Assembly: GCA_023265625.1 (NCBI GenBank) | Contig: JAHFST010000006.1 | Span: forward strand, 62,001-126,000 | Length of the DNA: 64,000 bases | Direction of reading: 5' to 3' | Source of the DNA: Deltaproteobacteria bacterium | Lineage (GTDB): Bacteria > UBA10199 > JACPAL01 > JAHFST01 | In this document: positions 6,357 to 53,045 of the stretch, in pieces | Layout: each line of letters opens with the position of its first letter | How positions within the stretch are numbered: position 1 is the first letter of the stretch | The notes under the pieces: generated by a model | What the model saw: the letters and a program-made list of their open reading frames with translations, nothing else | What the model was told of the DNA's origin: nothing | The model's database searches: none | Program-made: the position numbers and the translations under genes

Positions 6357-7480
6357 TGCCTGGGCTCATTTCACCTTCTATTCGATCTTCCCTCCCTCCG
6401 TTGCCCTTTATTTTTCCGTCTCGCTTTCCATTGAAACGAGAGGTGGCATTTGCCCCGCAGATGGTCCTTGAAGCCTGTCGGATGGCGGAGGAGATTCGAA
6501 GCCATCCCCCGATGTGGTGTGAAAGAAAATGGGATGGAAGCCAGGTGTCGGTGGCTGATTTTGCCATCCAATATGTTTGTACCCGAAAACTGGCTGTCTC
6601 TTTTCCGGGGGATGTCATCTTGTCGGAGGAGGATGGGAGGACGCTCGAACAACAATTTCCCCCAAAGGCTCGGAAGGCGGTCGTTGATGTGATTCGTCGT
6701 CATGATAAGCGATTTCATCCCAAACATCTGGAGGCCTGGATCGAGAAGGGACGTAGTCCTCTCCCTTCTTCACGGTATTGGACTAGCGATCCGATCGACG
6801 TGACGGCGGAGTTCATCAAAGGGGGGCAATATTCCGTCAATCTGGCGTTGAGCGAAGATGGGGGCATCAAGATTGGTGTGATTGGTTGCCCTAATATGAA
6901 GCTCCCCCATTCCCCGCCGTCCAACCGAGGAGAGTTGCTCGTGGCGGTGCAAGGTTATGGGGCTTGGAGTTGCGGCCTTACGGAAGACGATCAATTTCAC
7001 CGGCTGCATGTCTCGGATCGACATTCTTTATCACAGGCGCTTTGGGCCCTTCCCTTACGTGACAAATCGCCGCGGTTCACCGACCAGGATTATCACTTGG
7101 TCAGGGGGTGCCTCGAGGTTTTCGGTAAGGTAGTGGGTGGGGTGAGACGGGCGGTGAGCCCGGTCCGCTATGCCTGGGTGGCAGCCGGTTTGGCTGACTT
7201 CTTTATAAACTTTCGGTTGGACTGCATCAACTCTCCATTTTATGTCCATGACCATGCCGCCGGTGTTCTTCTGGTGCAGGAGGCGGGGGGGACGGTCACC
7301 ACGCTACGTCGTCGGCCGCTTGATTTTCGGACACCGCCGTGGATGGGAGAACTCTTCGGACTGTTGGTTAGCAACTCGCCTCTCGAAAATCCTTCACTTC
7401 ATGACGAGGTGTTGTCCCGTTTTCGGAGAGTCGCATGGGATGTTTTTCCGGTAGAAAAAAGGCGCGAGCTATACAAGTGA
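6356..7480 (+). CDS. HAL2/CysQ-like inositol monophosphatase family protein, copy 3
   Basis: A 374-residue paralogue. Motifs are ILSEEDGRTL, RYWTSDPIDVT with GGQYSVNL and GVIGCPNMKL, GYGAWSCGLTEDDQFHRLHVS, and YVHDHAAGVLLVQEAGG. It shares the Val-for-Gly change with copy 1, and all three share His in place of the usual Trp before DxAAG. It starts with GTG inside the TAG stop of copy 2 (TAGTG), indicating translational coupling. Its last 12 bases overlap the end of the convergent rsmA gene. Copies 1 and 3 look more similar to each other than to copy 2, suggesting two duplication steps with the metzincin gene inserted afterwards, or divergence of copy 2. Confidence 0.8.
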   Translation: MPGLISPSIRSSLPPLPFIFPSRFPLKREVAFAPQMVLEACRMAEEIRSHPPMWCERKWDGSQVSVADFAIQYVCTRKLAVSFPGDVILSEEDGRTLEQQFPPKARKAVVDVIRRHDKRFHPKHLEAWIEKGRSPLPSSRYWTSDPIDVTAEFIKGGQYSVNLALSEDGGIKIGVIGCPNMKLPHSPPSNRGELLVAVQGYGAWSCGLTEDDQFHRLHVSDRHSLSQALWALPLRDKSPRFTDQDYHLVRGCLEVFGKVVGGVRRAVSPVRYAWVAAGLADFFINFRLDCINSPFYVHDHAAGVLLVQEAGGTVTTLRRRPLDFRTPPWMGELFGLLVSNSPLENPSLHDEVLSRFRRVAWDVFPVEKRRELYK

Positions 7481-8338
7481 AGCGCTACTGACGTCATTCG
7501 CCAGGTGAACAAATTTCTCAATCACAATCCGTTCCGGCCGGTCAGTGGGCAGGATCCCGGCTTTTTCAAAATAAGGCAAAAATTCGCCCAAGGTGCTGCG
7601 CAACATTTTGCGGCGTTGGGTGAAGGCGGTGCGGACGATTTTTTGGAAGAGGGGGAAGTTTTGGATTGCGTAACGGGGTTGGTCGGTGAGTCGGAATTCC
7701 ACGACGGCCGAATCGACCTTCGGCGGCGGGGCGAAGGCCCCCGGGGGGAGGCGCATGACGATCCGGGTTTGGGCCCAAACCTGGACCATGATGGAGAGGA
7801 CCCCGTAGTCCTTGGGGCGTGTGGGGGTGGCGACTAGGCGCTCGGCGACCTCGCGTTGGACCATTAGGTGGCATTGGGTCATGTAGGGGCGTCCCGGTGG
7901 GACGCCCTCCGGGTGATGTCGGGGTTCTGGGCGACCCACCGGGTCGCCCCTACAATTGCCCGTGATTTCCGTGTTAAAATTCACCCCTAACAACCTAAAA
8001 ATTATCTCTGTCGCGATATTGTAAGGCAAATTGGCGATCACCTTCCAAGGTCCCGGTTCCAAAATGGTTGTCAAATCGGTTGCCAAAATATCCCCAGCAA
8101 TCACTGTGACGTGATCCGGCAATTTTTCCCGCAGCGGGGCGATCAATCGCTCATCTTTTTCAATTGCCACCACCCGTCCGGCCGTTGCGGCGATCTGGGC
8201 GGTCATCCATCCGGGGCCTGGGCCGATTTCTAAGACCTGATCGGTGGGTTGCAACTGGGCCAGGGAGACGATTTTATTGATAGTGGCAGGATTGGTTAGG
8301 AAATGTTGCCCGAGAGATTTTTTGGGGGAGAATCGCAT
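7469..8338 (-). CDS. rsmA: 16S rRNA dimethyladenosine transferase, with an in-frame repeat insertion
   Basis: RsmA/KsgA dimethylates the two adjacent adenines in the helix 45 loop of 16S rRNA. The N-terminus KKSLGQHFLTNP, the SAM motif EIGPGPGWMT and the catalytic NLPYN are all present. Family members run straight from the NLPYN helix into LMVQREVAERL; here about 25 residues rich in Gly, Pro and Arg (beginning RGDPVGRPEPRH) are inserted between them, encoded by the palindromic element at 7882-7954 with the frame preserved. The ATG at 8338 is chosen because the longer TTG start at 8350 lies inside another palindrome. The end overlaps phosphatase copy 3. It follows tsaD on the same strand. Confidence 0.93.
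   Translation of the reverse strand: MRFSPKKSLGQHFLTNPATINKIVSLAQLQPTDQVLEIGPGPGWMTAQIAATAGRVVAIEKDERLIAPLREKLPDHVTVIAGDILATDLTTILEPGPWKVIANLPYNIATEIIFRLLGVNFNTEITGNCRGDPVGRPEPRHHPEGVPPGRPYMTQCHLMVQREVAERLVATPTRPKDYGVLSIMVQVWAQTRIVMRLPPGAFAPPPKVDSAVVEFRLTDQPRYAIQNFPLFQKIVRTAFTQRRKMLRSTLGEFLPYFEKAGILPTDRPERIVIEKFVHLANDVSSASLV
7882..7954. repeat. Family 1 palindromic repeat (GTAGGGGCG type) inside rsmA
   Basis: A 73-bp element that starts TGTAGGGGCG and ends CGCCCCTACA. It contains two hairpins: a GGGCGTCCC/GGGACGCCC stem and a GGGCGACCC/GGGTCGCCC stem. It is translated in the rsmA frame. The same ends recur at 8339, 19673, 20025, 40147, 40566, 47848, 47979 and 51572. Confidence 0.9.
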
Positions 8339-8366
8339 GTAGGGGTTCAAAATTTTGAACCCCTAC
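8339..8366. repeat. Family 1 repeat reduced to a perfect 28-bp palindrome
   Basis: GTAGGGGTTCAAAA joined to its exact reverse complement, with no loop. It contains the tsaD stop codon and ends one base before the rsmA ATG, so the two genes meet at the element. An RNA hairpin here could affect tsaD termination or rsmA translation. Confidence 0.9.
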
Positions 8367-9400
8367 CTACGGGGTTCCAATGCAATCCCCATCCGGGTTA
8401 AATCCACATTCGCCGTCGCATTCAACGACAACGGCGACCTCTTCCCTGCCAAAAGATACCGCCCCCCCACATACGCGATCATGGCCGCATTATCCGTGCT
8501 CATGATGGGGGTGGGAAAGAAGACCTGGAGTTTTTTGGCCTTGGCCACCTTGGCAAATTGCTTGCGCAATCGGCTATTGCAGGCGACACCGCCGGTGACG
8601 ACGATGGTTTTGCAGCGGAACTTGCCCGCGGCGGCCAGTGTTTTTTCGATCAAGTTATCCACGACTACCTCTTGAAAAGACGCGCAGAAATTAGCGATCG
8701 TTTGTTCATTGAGAGGTTTGCGTCGTTCTGCCTCGACTCGGATGGCGGTCTTGAGTCCGCTAAAACTAAAGCCAAACTCAGCCACCTTGGGTTTGGGCAA
8801 GACGATCGAGCTTGGGTCTCCAAGTTGTGCGCGTTTGTCAACGACGGGACCACCCGGGTAGCCCAGCCCCAAGATCTTGGCGGCCTTGTCGAAGGCCTCT
8901 CCGGCGGCATCGTCGTGGGTTCCCCCTAAAAATTTATAATCGCCAAACTTTTTGACTCGCAGCAGGGCCGTATGTCCGCCCGAGACGATCAGGGCGATTT
9001 GGGGGTAGCGAATCTTGTTGGGTTCGATCAGGCAGGGGGCGTTCAGATGTCCCTCCAAGTGATTGACACCGATAAAGGGAATTTTGCGGGCGAAGGCCAA
9101 GGCCTTGGCGAACGAAACACCGACCAACAAAGATCCAACCAGGCCTGGGGATGAGGTGACCGCGATTCCCGAAATATTTTTGAGCCCGACTTTTTTAGTG
9201 GCTTCTTTCACGAGGGCCGGGAGGACTTCAATGTGTCGCCGACTGGCCAGCTCCGGGACGATACCTCCGTAGGGGGTGTGGACGTCGTGTTGCGAGGCGA
9301 TTAAATTCTCCAAAAGTTTGAATTTGAGCGGACGAGGTTGCAGCTCGAGCAGGGCCACCGCGGTTTCATCGCAAGAGGTTTCGATGCCCAAGACTAACAT
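8363..9400 (-). CDS. tsaD: tRNA N6-threonylcarbamoyladenosine transferase
   Basis: TsaD transfers threonylcarbamoyl from TC-AMP to A37 of ANN-decoding tRNAs, working with TsaB and TsaE. The 345-residue length is standard. MLVLGIETSCDETAVAL at the N-terminus, the metal-binding histidines in GVNHLEGHL, SGGHTALL and the C-terminal NAAMIAYVGGR are all as in the family. Its ATG overlaps the end of the crotonase gene (the TAG of that gene is at 9394-9396 and the ATG at 9398-9400), suggesting coupled translation. Its stop codon is within the 28-bp palindrome that precedes rsmA. tsaB and tsaE are not in the window. Confidence 0.97.
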   Translation of the reverse strand: MLVLGIETSCDETAVALLELQPRPLKFKLLENLIASQHDVHTPYGGIVPELASRRHIEVLPALVKEATKKVGLKNISGIAVTSSPGLVGSLLVGVSFAKALAFARKIPFIGVNHLEGHLNAPCLIEPNKIRYPQIALIVSGGHTALLRVKKFGDYKFLGGTHDDAAGEAFDKAAKILGLGYPGGPVVDKRAQLGDPSSIVLPKPKVAEFGFSFSGLKTAIRVEAERRKPLNEQTIANFCASFQEVVVDNLIEKTLAAAGKFRCKTIVVTGGVACNSRLRKQFAKVAKAKKLQVFFPTPIMSTDNAAMIAYVGGRYLLAGKRSPLSLNATANVDLTRMGIALEPRR

Positions 9401-19113: not shown

Positions 19114-20517
19114 TTAGAGTGACTCCACAATCCCCTTGGCTTTCACCAAGGTCTCTTCATATTCCTGCTCCGGATCGGAATCGGCTACGATCCCTCCGCC
19201 GGCCCACCAATGCACGAACCCATCTTTCACCACGAGGGTGCGAATGGCCACATTAAAATGAGCCTGGCCTGCTTGATCCACGAAGCCAATCGCCCCGGTA
19301 TAGACCTCCCGTGCCGTTGGCTCCAGTTCGCGGATGATTTGCATGGCGCGAACCTTTGGGGCGCCGGTGATGGATCCACCCGGAAAGGTGGCGCGGAGGA
19401 CGTCTTCGATAGAACAATCCTCTCGAAGCGTGCCTTGCACGGTGGCTACTAGGTGATGGACCTGGGGATAGGATTCGACCTGTGCCACCGGTGTGGCAAC
19501 TTGCACGGAACCGGTTTGGCACACCTTGCCCAGGTCGTTGCGTTCCAAATCGACGATCATCAACAGTTCTGCCCGGTCCTTGGCGCTGGTATACAATTCT
19601 TCTTTGAAACGGGCATCGGCTTCCGGGGTGTTGCCACGAGGCCGGGTCCCTTTGATCGGGCGGGTGGTGACCTGTAGGGGCGCTGCTCCAACCAGAGGCT
19701 GGTCCGCCTCTGGCGGATGCTGCGCCCTATCCCGGCGGTCGTCGGGGGGCGCGCCAAGGGGCGCCCCTACATGAAGGAAACATTCCGGCGAAGCAGAAAT
19801 AATCTGCGCCTCCCCCAGATTGAGATAGGCGGCGTAGGGGGCCGGGCTGGTTTGGCGGAGCTGTTGGTAAAGGTCGTAAGACGATCGGGTTGTTGAGGTA
19901 GTCCAGCGCTGCGAAAGGTTCACCTGATAGACGTCTCCAGCGGCGATGTATCGTTTTATCTTTTGCACCGCGGCGATGTATTCGAGGCGGGTGAAATTCG
20001 ATTGGATATCCCTAGGCCCCTGCCGTAGGGGCGGCCCTACGTGGCCGCCCGGCTCGTGTGTTGCCGTGGCCGCAAACAGGGGGCACCCACGGGGAGTTGC
20101 CCCTACAGTCCACCCTTTTTTTTCAAAATGATCATACACATAAAAATTTTCATATCGCGCAAAAACCGCCGCGGGTATCAGTCTGGACTGGCGTGATGGA
20201 ATTTTGGATTCCAAGAGATTGTACAATTCATACCCCAAATACCCAATCCATCCGCCATTAAATGGCAACCTCGGAATTCCCCCTCTTAGGGTAAGAGGGG
20301 GGCAGGGGGTGTTATTCCCCAAAAATGCAAACGGATCTGCCTCCCCGGGCCCTCCATTAAACCGATAGATTTCGACCGGATCCCAAGCGGCAATGGTGTA
20401 TTGCCCCTGAGGTCCCCCCAGCGAGGATTCCAGCAGAAAAAAATATGGACTTTGATACATTTCCGGCGCAATTCCTTCAGGGGTGAAGGTGACTTCTTGT
20501 AAATCCATCGCTGTCAT
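19114..20517 (-). CDS. pabB: Aminodeoxychorismate synthase component I, with three in-frame repeat insertions
   Basis: A 467-residue chorismate-utilising enzyme that makes 4-amino-4-deoxychorismate with glutamine amidotransferase PabA. Core motifs are AAGDVYQVNLSQRW, TRPIKGTRPRG, GSITGAPKVRAM and WWAGGGIVADSDPEQEY. Three repeat elements lie inside the gene and are read through in frame: at 20275-20319 (residues near [10 protein letters not shown]), at 20025-20106 (about 28 residues) and at 19673-19771 (about 33 residues, splitting SPECFLHV from TTRPIKGTRPRG). The start is taken at 20517 (MTAMDLQEV); 20508 is possible. The 5' end overlaps the divergent MBL gene. pabA is not in the window. Confidence 0.92.
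   Translation of the reverse strand: MTAMDLQEVTFTPEGIAPEMYQSPYFFLLESSLGGPQGQYTIAAWDPVEIYRFNGGPGEADPFAFLGNNTPCPPLTLRGGIPRLPFNGGWIGYLGYELYNLLESKIPSRQSRLIPAAVFARYENFYVYDHFEKKGWTVGATPRGCPLFAATATHEPGGHVGPPLRQGPRDIQSNFTRLEYIAAVQKIKRYIAAGDVYQVNLSQRWTTSTTRSSYDLYQQLRQTSPAPYAAYLNLGEAQIISASPECFLHVGAPLGAPPDDRRDRAQHPPEADQPLVGAAPLQVTTRPIKGTRPRGNTPEADARFKEELYTSAKDRAELLMIVDLERNDLGKVCQTGSVQVATPVAQVESYPQVHHLVATVQGTLREDCSIEDVLRATFPGGSITGAPKVRAMQIIRELEPTAREVYTGAIGFVDQAGQAHFNVAIRTLVVKDGFVHWWAGGGIVADSDPEQEYEETLVKAKGIVESL
19673..19771. repeat. Family 1 repeat inside pabB (site A)
   Basis: A 99-bp element, exactly 33 codons. It begins TGTAGGGGCG, ends CGCCCCTACA, and has an internal AACCAGAGGC/GCCTCTGG-like hairpin. 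It is inserted in the most conserved stretch of PabB just before the KGTRPRG active-site loop. Confidence 0.9.
20025..20106. repeat. Family 1 repeat inside pabB (site B)
   Basis: An 82-bp element from GTAGGGGCGG to TTGCCCCTAC. The first hairpin is GGGCGGCC.../GTGGCCGCCC and the second pairs a GGGGGCA-like arm with TTGCCCC. It is read as a Gly/Pro/Arg-rich loop in PabB. Confidence 0.88.
20275..20319. repeat. Family 3 repeat (CCCCCTCTTAC type) inside pabB (site C)
   Basis: A 45-bp element with a CCCCCTCTTA/TAAGAGGGGG hairpin and the trailing GCAGGGGGTGTTAT. It encodes the Pro- and Gly-flanked segment [10 protein letters not shown]. The same family occurs at 31613-31705. Confidence 0.85.
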
Positions 20518-40565: not shown

Positions 40566-40641
40566 TGTAGGGGCGCACCCATGTGTGCGCCCTCATCCCG
40601 GTGACCGCGATTTGGGGCAGACACATGGGTCTGCCCCTACA
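40566..40641. repeat. Family 1 repeat between DUF971 and aldo/keto reductase genes
   Basis: A 76-bp element from TGTAGGGGCG to TGCCCCTACA with two hairpins (GGGCGCAC.../GTGCGCCC and GGGGCAGAC.../GTCTGCCCC). It lies in the divergent promoter region, so both promoters must be outside or within it. Confidence 0.92.
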
Positions 40642-51387: not shown

Positions 51388-52590
51388 TTATACAGGCCGC
51401 TTCTTGATCAACAACCGCCGCTCAATCTCAAAAATCTTCTCCGGAATCTTTTCTTTTCCTAAATCCTTCTTATCGTTCTCCTTGATAAAGAGATCGGCGC
51501 CGAATTTTTCCACGGCCTCAATCCCCTTGATCCCCTTGACCCCGATCAGTTGAAATTGGACGATCCCTGCCTGTAGGGGCGCGGTTCCCGCGCCCGGGCG
51601 GGGGGGGGCCGCCCCTACGTCATCGGTGGCCAGCACCCGACTGATGGCATAAATTGTGTCGCCGGAGACCACCGGTTGCGTGTGGTACCCTTCGGTATAG
51701 CCCAGGTCCCAGAGGGCATTCTCCGAGACATCACGCGAAGCCAACCCGCAGAGCCAGGCGAAGACCAAGCCGCCGTAGACAATGGGCTCACCGCTCATCT
51801 TACCGCCTAAGCCGGTGGAATAGAGTTTGTCGTAATGGAGCGGGTGGGTGTTCATGACCCGGTAGGTCCAGGCGTAGTGCTCATCGGTAATGGTCCGGCC
51901 ATTCTTGTGGATGAGGATGTCTCCGACCTGAAAGTCTTCAAAATAAGTGCGCGTCCCCGTCAGATTGGCGGGAACTTTTTCCGGGACCGGGATCTGTAAG
52001 TTAATCTCTTGGGTATCAGGGAAGGGTTGCCCGCTGATCGTCGTGGGATCAGTCTTCTTACCCGCCGGAGGGACCATGATCTTGCGATCGTATTGTAAAA
52101 CGAGTTCCTCTTTTTGATTCAAGGCAATGGTGCGAATAGTCACAATGCCGGGTTTGCCTTCACCACGCTCTTTTCGATCCAAGACCTTGGTCAAGGCGCG
52201 GAGGGTGTCTCCCGGGTAGACGGCTTTTGGGAAGTGCATGTTGTAGTAGCCTAGATTGGCCATGGCCTTTTCGGAGTCGTTTTGCACGCCGAGTGAGAGG
52301 GCGATGTTCATCACCATGAGGGGGGAGACGACGGCATCAGGATGTCCGTGGGCCTTGGCAAACTCCACATTCAGGTAGAGCGGGTTGGTCTCCATGTAGG
52401 TGGTGGCAAATTCGATGGCAAAGGCCCGATCGATCGTGAGCCCGCGGGGATGGCAAAAAACCTCTCCTTGGACGAAGTCCTCAAGCACCCGGCCGTATTG
52501 TGGAGACCTTTTCTGTTCCAATTTTGTGTCGGTTTTAGCGGATATTTCTAAAATTTTAAGGGCTTGCTTCAGTGCTACGGTTGTTCCCAT
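51388..52590 (-). CDS. Mesaconyl-CoA hydratase (double hot-dog, MaoC type), with an in-frame repeat insertion
   Basis: A 400-residue protein with two hot-dog domains that hydrates mesaconyl-CoA to beta-methylmalyl-CoA. [20 protein letters not shown] and the second-domain [19 protein letters not shown] and [20 protein letters not shown] match the mesaconyl-CoA hydratases of ethylmalonyl-CoA pathway organisms. A family 1 repeat (51572-51618) adds [15 protein letters not shown] in the loop after the final hot-dog strand. The ATG at 52590 follows GGGGAGG. The gene is upstream of ecm. A C-terminal basic helix of about 50 residues ([16 protein letters not shown]) is an extra feature. Confidence 0.88.
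51572..51618. repeat. Family 1 repeat inside the mesaconyl-CoA hydratase gene
   Basis: A 47-bp element from TGTAGGGGCG to CCGCCCCTAC, with the hairpin GGGCGCGG/CCGCGCCC and a G-run. It encodes the Pro/Ala/Gly loop [15 protein letters not shown]. Confidence 0.9.
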
Positions 52591-52655
52591 CGTGTCCTCC
52601 CCATTAAAAACCTGCCCACCTGTACGCAGATTTGCAGGGAGGATCAAGAAAAAAG

Positions 52656-53045
52656 TCAATTCAACGCGTGGACAAACGACAGCCTTTTGACCTGCCGCAC
52701 CAATTTGAGATCGGCGGTAATGAGCTCCAGTTTGAGCCGTTCCGCCAAGGCTACAAAGGAGGCATCATAGGCCGTGATGTGAAATTCCTGGCACAACTCT
52801 ACCACACGATCAAAGCCGGGTTGAGGGAGGACAAACAATTCTAGTTGCAGTTGATGAAGCTCCTTCAAAAAAAACTTTTTATCCTCCAAGGAAAGATAGG
52901 TCCGATAAGCCAGGATGTTTGAGAATTCATAGAGGAGGAGGTCAGGAGCCCCTAGTGGGTTGGTGAGCAGGAGTTTTTTTGCCGATTCGGAACCTGTCTC
53001 CGGAAAGAAAAGCTTAGCGACCACGGATGTGTCTACGATGATCAT
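52656..53045 (-). CDS. PIN-domain toxin (VapC type)
   Basis: A 129-residue PIN toxin. [36 protein letters not shown] and LITADLKL carry the acidic active-site residues. It looks intact. The ATG at 53045 is one base after the antitoxin stop; the longer frame that overlaps the antitoxin is not needed. Confidence 0.88.

Follow-up and report, generated by a model that had tools for sequence, protein, structure and literature searches.

The locus lies in a 64,000-nucleotide stretch of DNA (the window) and is occupied by rsmA (ksgA), with tsaD upstream of it. The initial annotation had described a palindromic repeat at 7882 to 7954 that is translated in frame inside RsmA, and its coordinates and in-frame position were confirmed. 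The rsmA frame runs from an ATG at 8338 to a stop at 7469 and is open throughout, straight across the palindrome, which in this frame encodes CRGDPVGRPEPRHHPEGVPPGRPYM. No alternative reading frame needs to be invoked. The product matches KsgA structures in the PDB down to 2e-40, and its Pfam RrnaAD match spans the insertion. The features of the locus are as follows.

7469 to 8338, minus strand: rsmA (ksgA), 289 aa, 16S rRNA dimethyladenosine transferase (Pfam RrnaAD, 9.8e-58; KsgA structures in the PDB)
7882 to 7954, no strand: GTAG-tagged REP head-to-head dimer (REPIN), in frame in rsmA (inverted repeat, folds, copies)
7882 to 7907 and 7929 to 7954: arms of the palindrome, with 21 nt between them
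7883 to 7907, plus strand: left REP unit, GTAG-GGGCGTCCC-GGT-GGGACGCCC, i.e., a GTAG foot and its own hairpin (sequence, arm comparison)
7908 to 7928, no strand: spacer between the REP units (inverted-repeat analysis)
7929 to 7953, minus strand: right REP unit, which reads GTAG-GGGCGACCC-GGT-GGGTCGCCC on the minus strand (arm comparison)
7955 to 7971, no strand: the ~17 extra nucleotides needed for a 90-bp net gain, borders uncertain (alignment, genome search)
8338 to 8367, no strand: second GTAG palindrome, at the rsmA 5' end and tsaD 3' end (inverted repeat, palindrome survey)

The 73-bp palindrome (TGTAGGGGCGTCCCGGTGGGACGCCC TCCGGGTGATGTCGGGGTTCT GGGCGACCCACCGGGTCGCCCCTACA) is near perfect, with 26-nt arms that inverted-repeat analysis found to be 92% complementary. 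Its fold as DNA has an energy of -34.1 kcal/mol (z of -6.6 relative to shuffled sequences), and its fold as the rsmA mRNA strand has an energy of -58 kcal/mol (z of -6.7 relative to shuffled sequences). Each REP unit carries a GTAG foot (GTAG at 7883 to 7886 and CTAC at 7950 to 7953), and the two units are inverted relative to one another while each is itself a hairpin, which is the anatomy of a head-to-head (HH) dimer. REPINs consist of two inverted REPs with a short spacer and are dispersed as one unit. Near-identical full copies of the rsmA element (90 to 95% over 72 to 79 bp) occur elsewhere in the genome, a 2.93-Mb assembly of 37 contigs in which the arm motif GTAGGGGCGNNCC has 108 matches, relative to 7 for a reversed control. 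By every feature tested except an exactly matching RAYT in the same genome, the rsmA element is a GTAG-tagged REP dimer. An Rfam scan of the element returned no family above the gathering score, only subthreshold hairpin look-alikes; no DNA match was found in plasmids; and a literature query with the arm sequence returned only unrelated work among the matches listed. The second palindrome at this locus is a 28-bp double-foot REP (GTAGGGGTTCAAAATTTTGAACCCCTAC) that directly abuts the rsmA ATG, and the 28-bp GTAG..CTAC units observed here match the "double foot" REPs of PMC6006769.

The initial annotation had placed the repeat between the NLPY motif and LMVQREV and estimated that it adds about 25 residues. 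An alignment with 78 relatives bears out this position: the distance from NLPY to QREV/QKEV is 62 residues in this RsmA, relative to 30 to 39 (mostly 32) in almost all of the aligned relatives. Since the closest of them, members of the same order with roughly 50 to 58% identity in the matched halves, have 32 residues between NLPY and QKEV, the insert is derived rather than ancestral; together with the repeat copies elsewhere in the genome, these insert-free relatives exclude the possibility that the segment is ancestral protein sequence. No close relative offers an empty site for comparison, so the insertion can be localized to the loop but no more precisely. The palindrome amounts to 24.3 codons, and the total net gain is 30 residues, i.e., 90 bp versus the 73 bp of the palindrome. 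The remaining ~17 nt lie on the 5' side of the palindrome in the sense of the gene, and this flank is found nowhere else in the genome, which rules out a longer mobile unit made up of the palindrome plus these nucleotides. With a GTAG-to-CTAC distance (L) of 71, the rsmA copy falls into an awkward length class: three does not divide 73 bp evenly, and therefore compensating bases must have been gained nearby. The gene is single copy in this genome, and apparent additional RsmA-like matches were the repeats themselves and not RsmA loci.

An AlphaFold run on an alignment of 42 RsmA sequences gave a model with a mean pLDDT of 90.6 and an intact KsgA fold, which Foldseek placed on KsgA structures (6ift; TM of 0.83, rmsd of 1.9). 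Residues 121 to 150 are structureless in this model (pLDDT of about 50 to 60) and sit between a helix at 106 to 116 and a strand at 153 to 161. This RsmA has the catalytic-region residues N103, P105, E60, and D83, whose alignment columns show no variation. Both the predicted KsgA/RsmA fold and the NLPY motif of the host protein are intact. The extra stretch of the model is what would be expected of a tolerated surface loop, and the proposal that the enzyme probably tolerates the element as a loop agrees with both the alignment and the predicted structure. We propose that rsmA received a GTAG-tagged REPIN, an element of a type that RAYT/TnpA_REP HUH transposases are believed to copy around genomes; that, as the present gene keeps its frame, the element would be translated as part of RsmA; that it probably makes a flexible loop, about 30 residues long, on the protein surface between beta5 and the beta4/alphaD unit bearing NLPY; and that the enzyme with this loop most likely still works. 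We assign this explanation as a whole a probability of roughly 0.86.

The rsmA copy is one of many. A palindrome survey of stretches around arm-motif matches, which is a sample rather than a census, yielded 88 GTAG..CTAC palindromes, 81 of which could be classed after duplicates, transposase genes, and ambiguous cases had been removed. Twenty-seven of the 81 lie in frame inside homology-confirmed genes, and these in-gene copies are stop-free in the frame of the host gene. The hosts (with the number of copies where there are several) are rsmA, pabB (2), a MaoC-like hydratase gene, mutL (2), truA, mutY (2), a phosphodiesterase gene, bioA (2), an M15 peptidase gene, metG (2), oppD, an accC-like gene (2), an Rsm22-like methyltransferase gene, an agmatine-deiminase-like gene, gpmI (4), carA, murD, and a uracil-DNA glycosylase gene. 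Copies elsewhere in the window, none of them assigned a strand, are as follows.

19673 to 19771: REPIN in frame in a pabB/trpE-like gene (minus strand), adjoining the PIKGTRPRG motif (Chorismate_bind match in two stretches)
20024 to 20107: another in-frame REPIN within that pabB/trpE-like gene (survey, frame, domain scan)
40566 to 40641: GTAG REPIN outside any long ORF, a comparison copy (palindrome survey)
51572 to 51619: in-frame GTAG palindrome within a MaoC/mesaconyl-CoA hydratase-like gene (ORF 51391 to 52764, minus strand)

Four separate in-frame GTAG palindromes of 61, 28, 28, and 61 bp were observed in gpmI (L179:5327-7027), and the surrounding protein is conserved from end to end relative to solved structures and to homologs from nine genomes of the order and class. 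The gpmI gene of another genome, G003 (L196), carries an unrelated-looking insert, SSLASPSAGFGAIGGAAERGPEF, in the loop where gpmI of the present genome has a 28-bp REP. At some in-gene sites, the net gain falls short of the repeat length, so local loop sequence has also been lost or is different there. Besides its clear REPIN, murD (L191) has a degenerate, in-frame, repeat-like segment near the N terminus at codons 40 to 62 (DVGGARHPPEADQPRSPLRGLE), and the HPPEADQP wording of the pabB insert is similar to it. At L008:3-2171, a REP joins the end of a surface-protein-like ORF and a membrane-protein-like ORF into one open frame with no Pfam match; the repeat may have mediated a fusion, or the join may be spurious.

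In-gene copies differ from the others in length. If the inserted length is taken to include a single extra base on each side or a 2-bp duplication, whole codons are added when L = 1 mod 3; 24 of the 27 in-gene copies in this genome belong to this frame-keeping class, relative to 32 of the 54 other copies (P = 0.005, Fisher test). When a second genome, G005, was added, the proportions were 32/36 for in-gene copies and 38/64 for the others (P = 0.0014), with the proviso that copies of one family share lengths, so the events counted in both comparisons are not fully independent. The rsmA copy (L = 71) is one of the few in-gene exceptions, in line with the extra bases required next to it. This length-class bias argues for translation of the element and against its being skipped. 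If ribosomes bypassed the hairpin, as they do mitochondrial byp elements, or if it were removed by RNA processing, the protein would be made without the loop, and the extreme stability of the hairpin on the mRNA strand (-58 kcal/mol) is in keeping with such a mechanism. An element that is skipped needs no frame, however, yet the in-gene copies avoid the frame-breaking length classes and contain no stop codons in the frame of the gene; we therefore regard skipping or removal as highly improbable relative to translation as a loop. The separate idea that REPs are specially translatable by way of a source copy in a RAYT gene was not supported, as nongenic copies are open in 3.07 of 6 frames, relative to 3.47 in shuffled sequences.

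The same habit is found in G005, which belongs to another family of the same order and carries in-frame copies in nadE, an aminotransferase gene, trpE, carA, tsaB (2), a methylmalonyl-CoA mutase gene, pheT, and pheS. Both subunits of the essential phenylalanyl-tRNA synthetase of this genome (L387:2-2830) thus contain in-frame REPINs, and a second repeat-like peptide, VGAGLKPART, was observed in its PheT. In carA of the two genomes (L184:1504-1582 and L372:1501-1558), which are from different families of the order, a REPIN occupies one and the same linker between domains and ends in an identical 3' junction, PLR|VIAYD; this reflects either an ancient insertion common to both genomes or recurrent insertion at this site. 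In contrast, with 10 of the overlapping ORFs scanned, none of the 35 copies in sampled stretches of G015, G019, and G042, which are more distant members of the same class, lies in a homology-confirmed gene. The long ORFs over these REPs are mostly spurious GC-rich frames: of the 10 scanned, 9 had no Pfam family, and the tenth had a Pfam domain away from the element. Since 36 of 100 copies in the two genomes of the order are in genes, relative to 0 of 35 in the three more distant ones (P = 2.6e-6), the in-gene habit is uneven between lineages. The sample from G001, also of this order, contained three palindromes only, too few to be informative.

These data bear on whether the REPIN simply disrupts rsmA, leaving a recently damaged, nonfunctional allele that is open by chance in a gene whose loss is tolerated in many bacteria. 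Indeed, rsmA is dispensable in laboratory bacteria, and the similarity of the element to its other copies (90 to 95% over 72 to 79 bp) is about that of a recent insertion. Nevertheless, the frame is kept and the motif residues are conserved, the same pattern is found in genes that are not plausibly lost (metG and murD in this genome, pheS and pheT in G005), and the length-class bias indicates selection for frame, so a disrupted rsmA appears unlikely. Repeats are also common sites of misassembly in short-read assemblies, and an assembly or binning error could have placed the repeat in rsmA. A read pair nevertheless exceeds an element of this size, the unique sequence on either flank carries on the same gene in frame, and 36 in-frame cases were found across two independent genomes; we give such an error hardly any credence.

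We also considered how the element might be mobilized. Ten Y1_Tnp matches were found in this genome, and three of its RAYT-type ORFs contain an in-frame REPIN directly downstream of the HUH motif PNHxH. The pattern recurs in many lineages: GTAGGGG..CCCCTAC follows the HUH motif within 200 nt in 45 of 61 RAYT ORFs, and the inverted-repeat score at this site is at least 12 in 39 of the 61, relative to 2 in an upstream control. In the RAYT ORFs with such a REPIN (L206, L220, L225, and about 40 among L207 to L307), the arms differ between genes, with palindromy kept. No RAYT with arms exactly matching those of the rsmA element was found in this genome; L206, one of its three ORFs with a built-in REPIN, carries the arms of another dispersed family with about ten copies in the sample. 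The right REP arm of the rsmA element is, however, identical (25/25) to an arm in a RAYT gene of another lineage (L287). These findings support, without proving, the mobilization of the element by RAYTs. A built-in REPIN in RAYT genes is common but is not in itself a discovery, as it was reported earlier (PMC6006769).

An IS630/mariner-type MITE with a TA duplication would account for the length rule equally well, since divisibility of L + 2 or L - 4 by three is what either a 2-bp target duplication or an extension of the palindrome by one base at each end would give. The two-hairpin anatomy with GTAG feet, which published REPs share (PMC6006769 and the GTAG REP passages of PMC3733652), counts against a MITE, as do the identical arms built into the RAYT gene at L287 and the three RAYT genes of this genome that carry such palindromes. 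Overall, we think a MITE very unlikely to be the source and favor a RAYT-mobilized REP.

REPINs of Pseudomonas are mainly intergenic, whereas the rsmA copy is coding. The inverted REP pair and short spacer nonetheless place REPINs (Bertels and Rainey, 2011; PMC3116915) among its closest known counterparts. REPs that lie in frame inside their own RAYT transposase genes have been described for TnpA_REP subclass 2.4 (Quentin et al., 2018; PMC6006769). RAYT genes of this genome and of many lineages likewise carry an in-frame REPIN, placed after the HUH motif and ahead of the later catalytic region, and are likened to this subclass by such features. In-frame intragenic GTAG REPs were published in 2013 (Di Nocera et al., PMC3733652), and the passages of that paper on GTAG REPs describe many traits observed here: GTAG at both outer ends, pairs of inverted hairpins, many copies, in-frame copies encoding 20 to 30 residues, and several copies in one gene (in their case, uvrA of Opitutus terrae). 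Relative to the cases in those passages, the arms here differ (GGGGCGACCC/GGGGCGTCCC etc.), the host lineage is uncultured, and about a third of the classified copies are in confirmed genes, with up to four per gene. Leaving aside its supplementary gene list, rsmA is not named in the main-text passages of PMC3733652 on GTAG REPs.

The initial annotation had also likened the repeat to Rickettsia palindromic elements while assigning it to a different family, and this comparison holds. As with those elements (reviewed in PMC10969869), the palindromes lie in frame in unrelated genes, where they are probably translated and tolerated as loops. By published descriptions, however, the GTAG foot and 73-bp length set the rsmA element apart from the CGTC-tagged RPE-4/RPE-6 repeats, as given in the corresponding passage of PMC3733652, and from the first-described Rickettsia elements of about 150 bp (PMC10969869). 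The element works like a Rickettsia palindromic element but, by foot motif and size, is not one. We know of no RAYT link for CGTC repeats. Taken together, these comparisons make the present case a new, dense instance of a published kind, given that in-frame intragenic GTAG REPs (in the GTAG passages of PMC3733652) and RAYT-gene REPs (PMC6006769) were already known.

The case is a clean and dense one of selfish palindromes written into proteins, outside Rickettsia and Opitutus, in which core enzymes (RsmA, GpmI, MetG, MurD, PheS, and PheT) are predicted to be intact yet to carry repeat-encoded loops. Specialists may find the density and the hosts striking: a single gpmI holds four copies, and metG, murD, pheS, and pheT are hosts as well. 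Repeat-encoded loops of this sort would mislead both gene annotation and structure prediction. More tentatively, and with considerable doubt on our part, the RAYT-mobilized REPINs of this one order may be a standing source of new protein segments, an engine of protein evolution rather than intergenic elements. On this reading, roughly a third to half of the sampled copies are in frame in confirmed genes, including essential ones, with up to four per gene, and the cause would be either insertion biased toward frame-neutral lengths or a lineage tolerant of loop extensions. The rate at which working enzymes gain segments from mobile DNA can be tested directly in this system.
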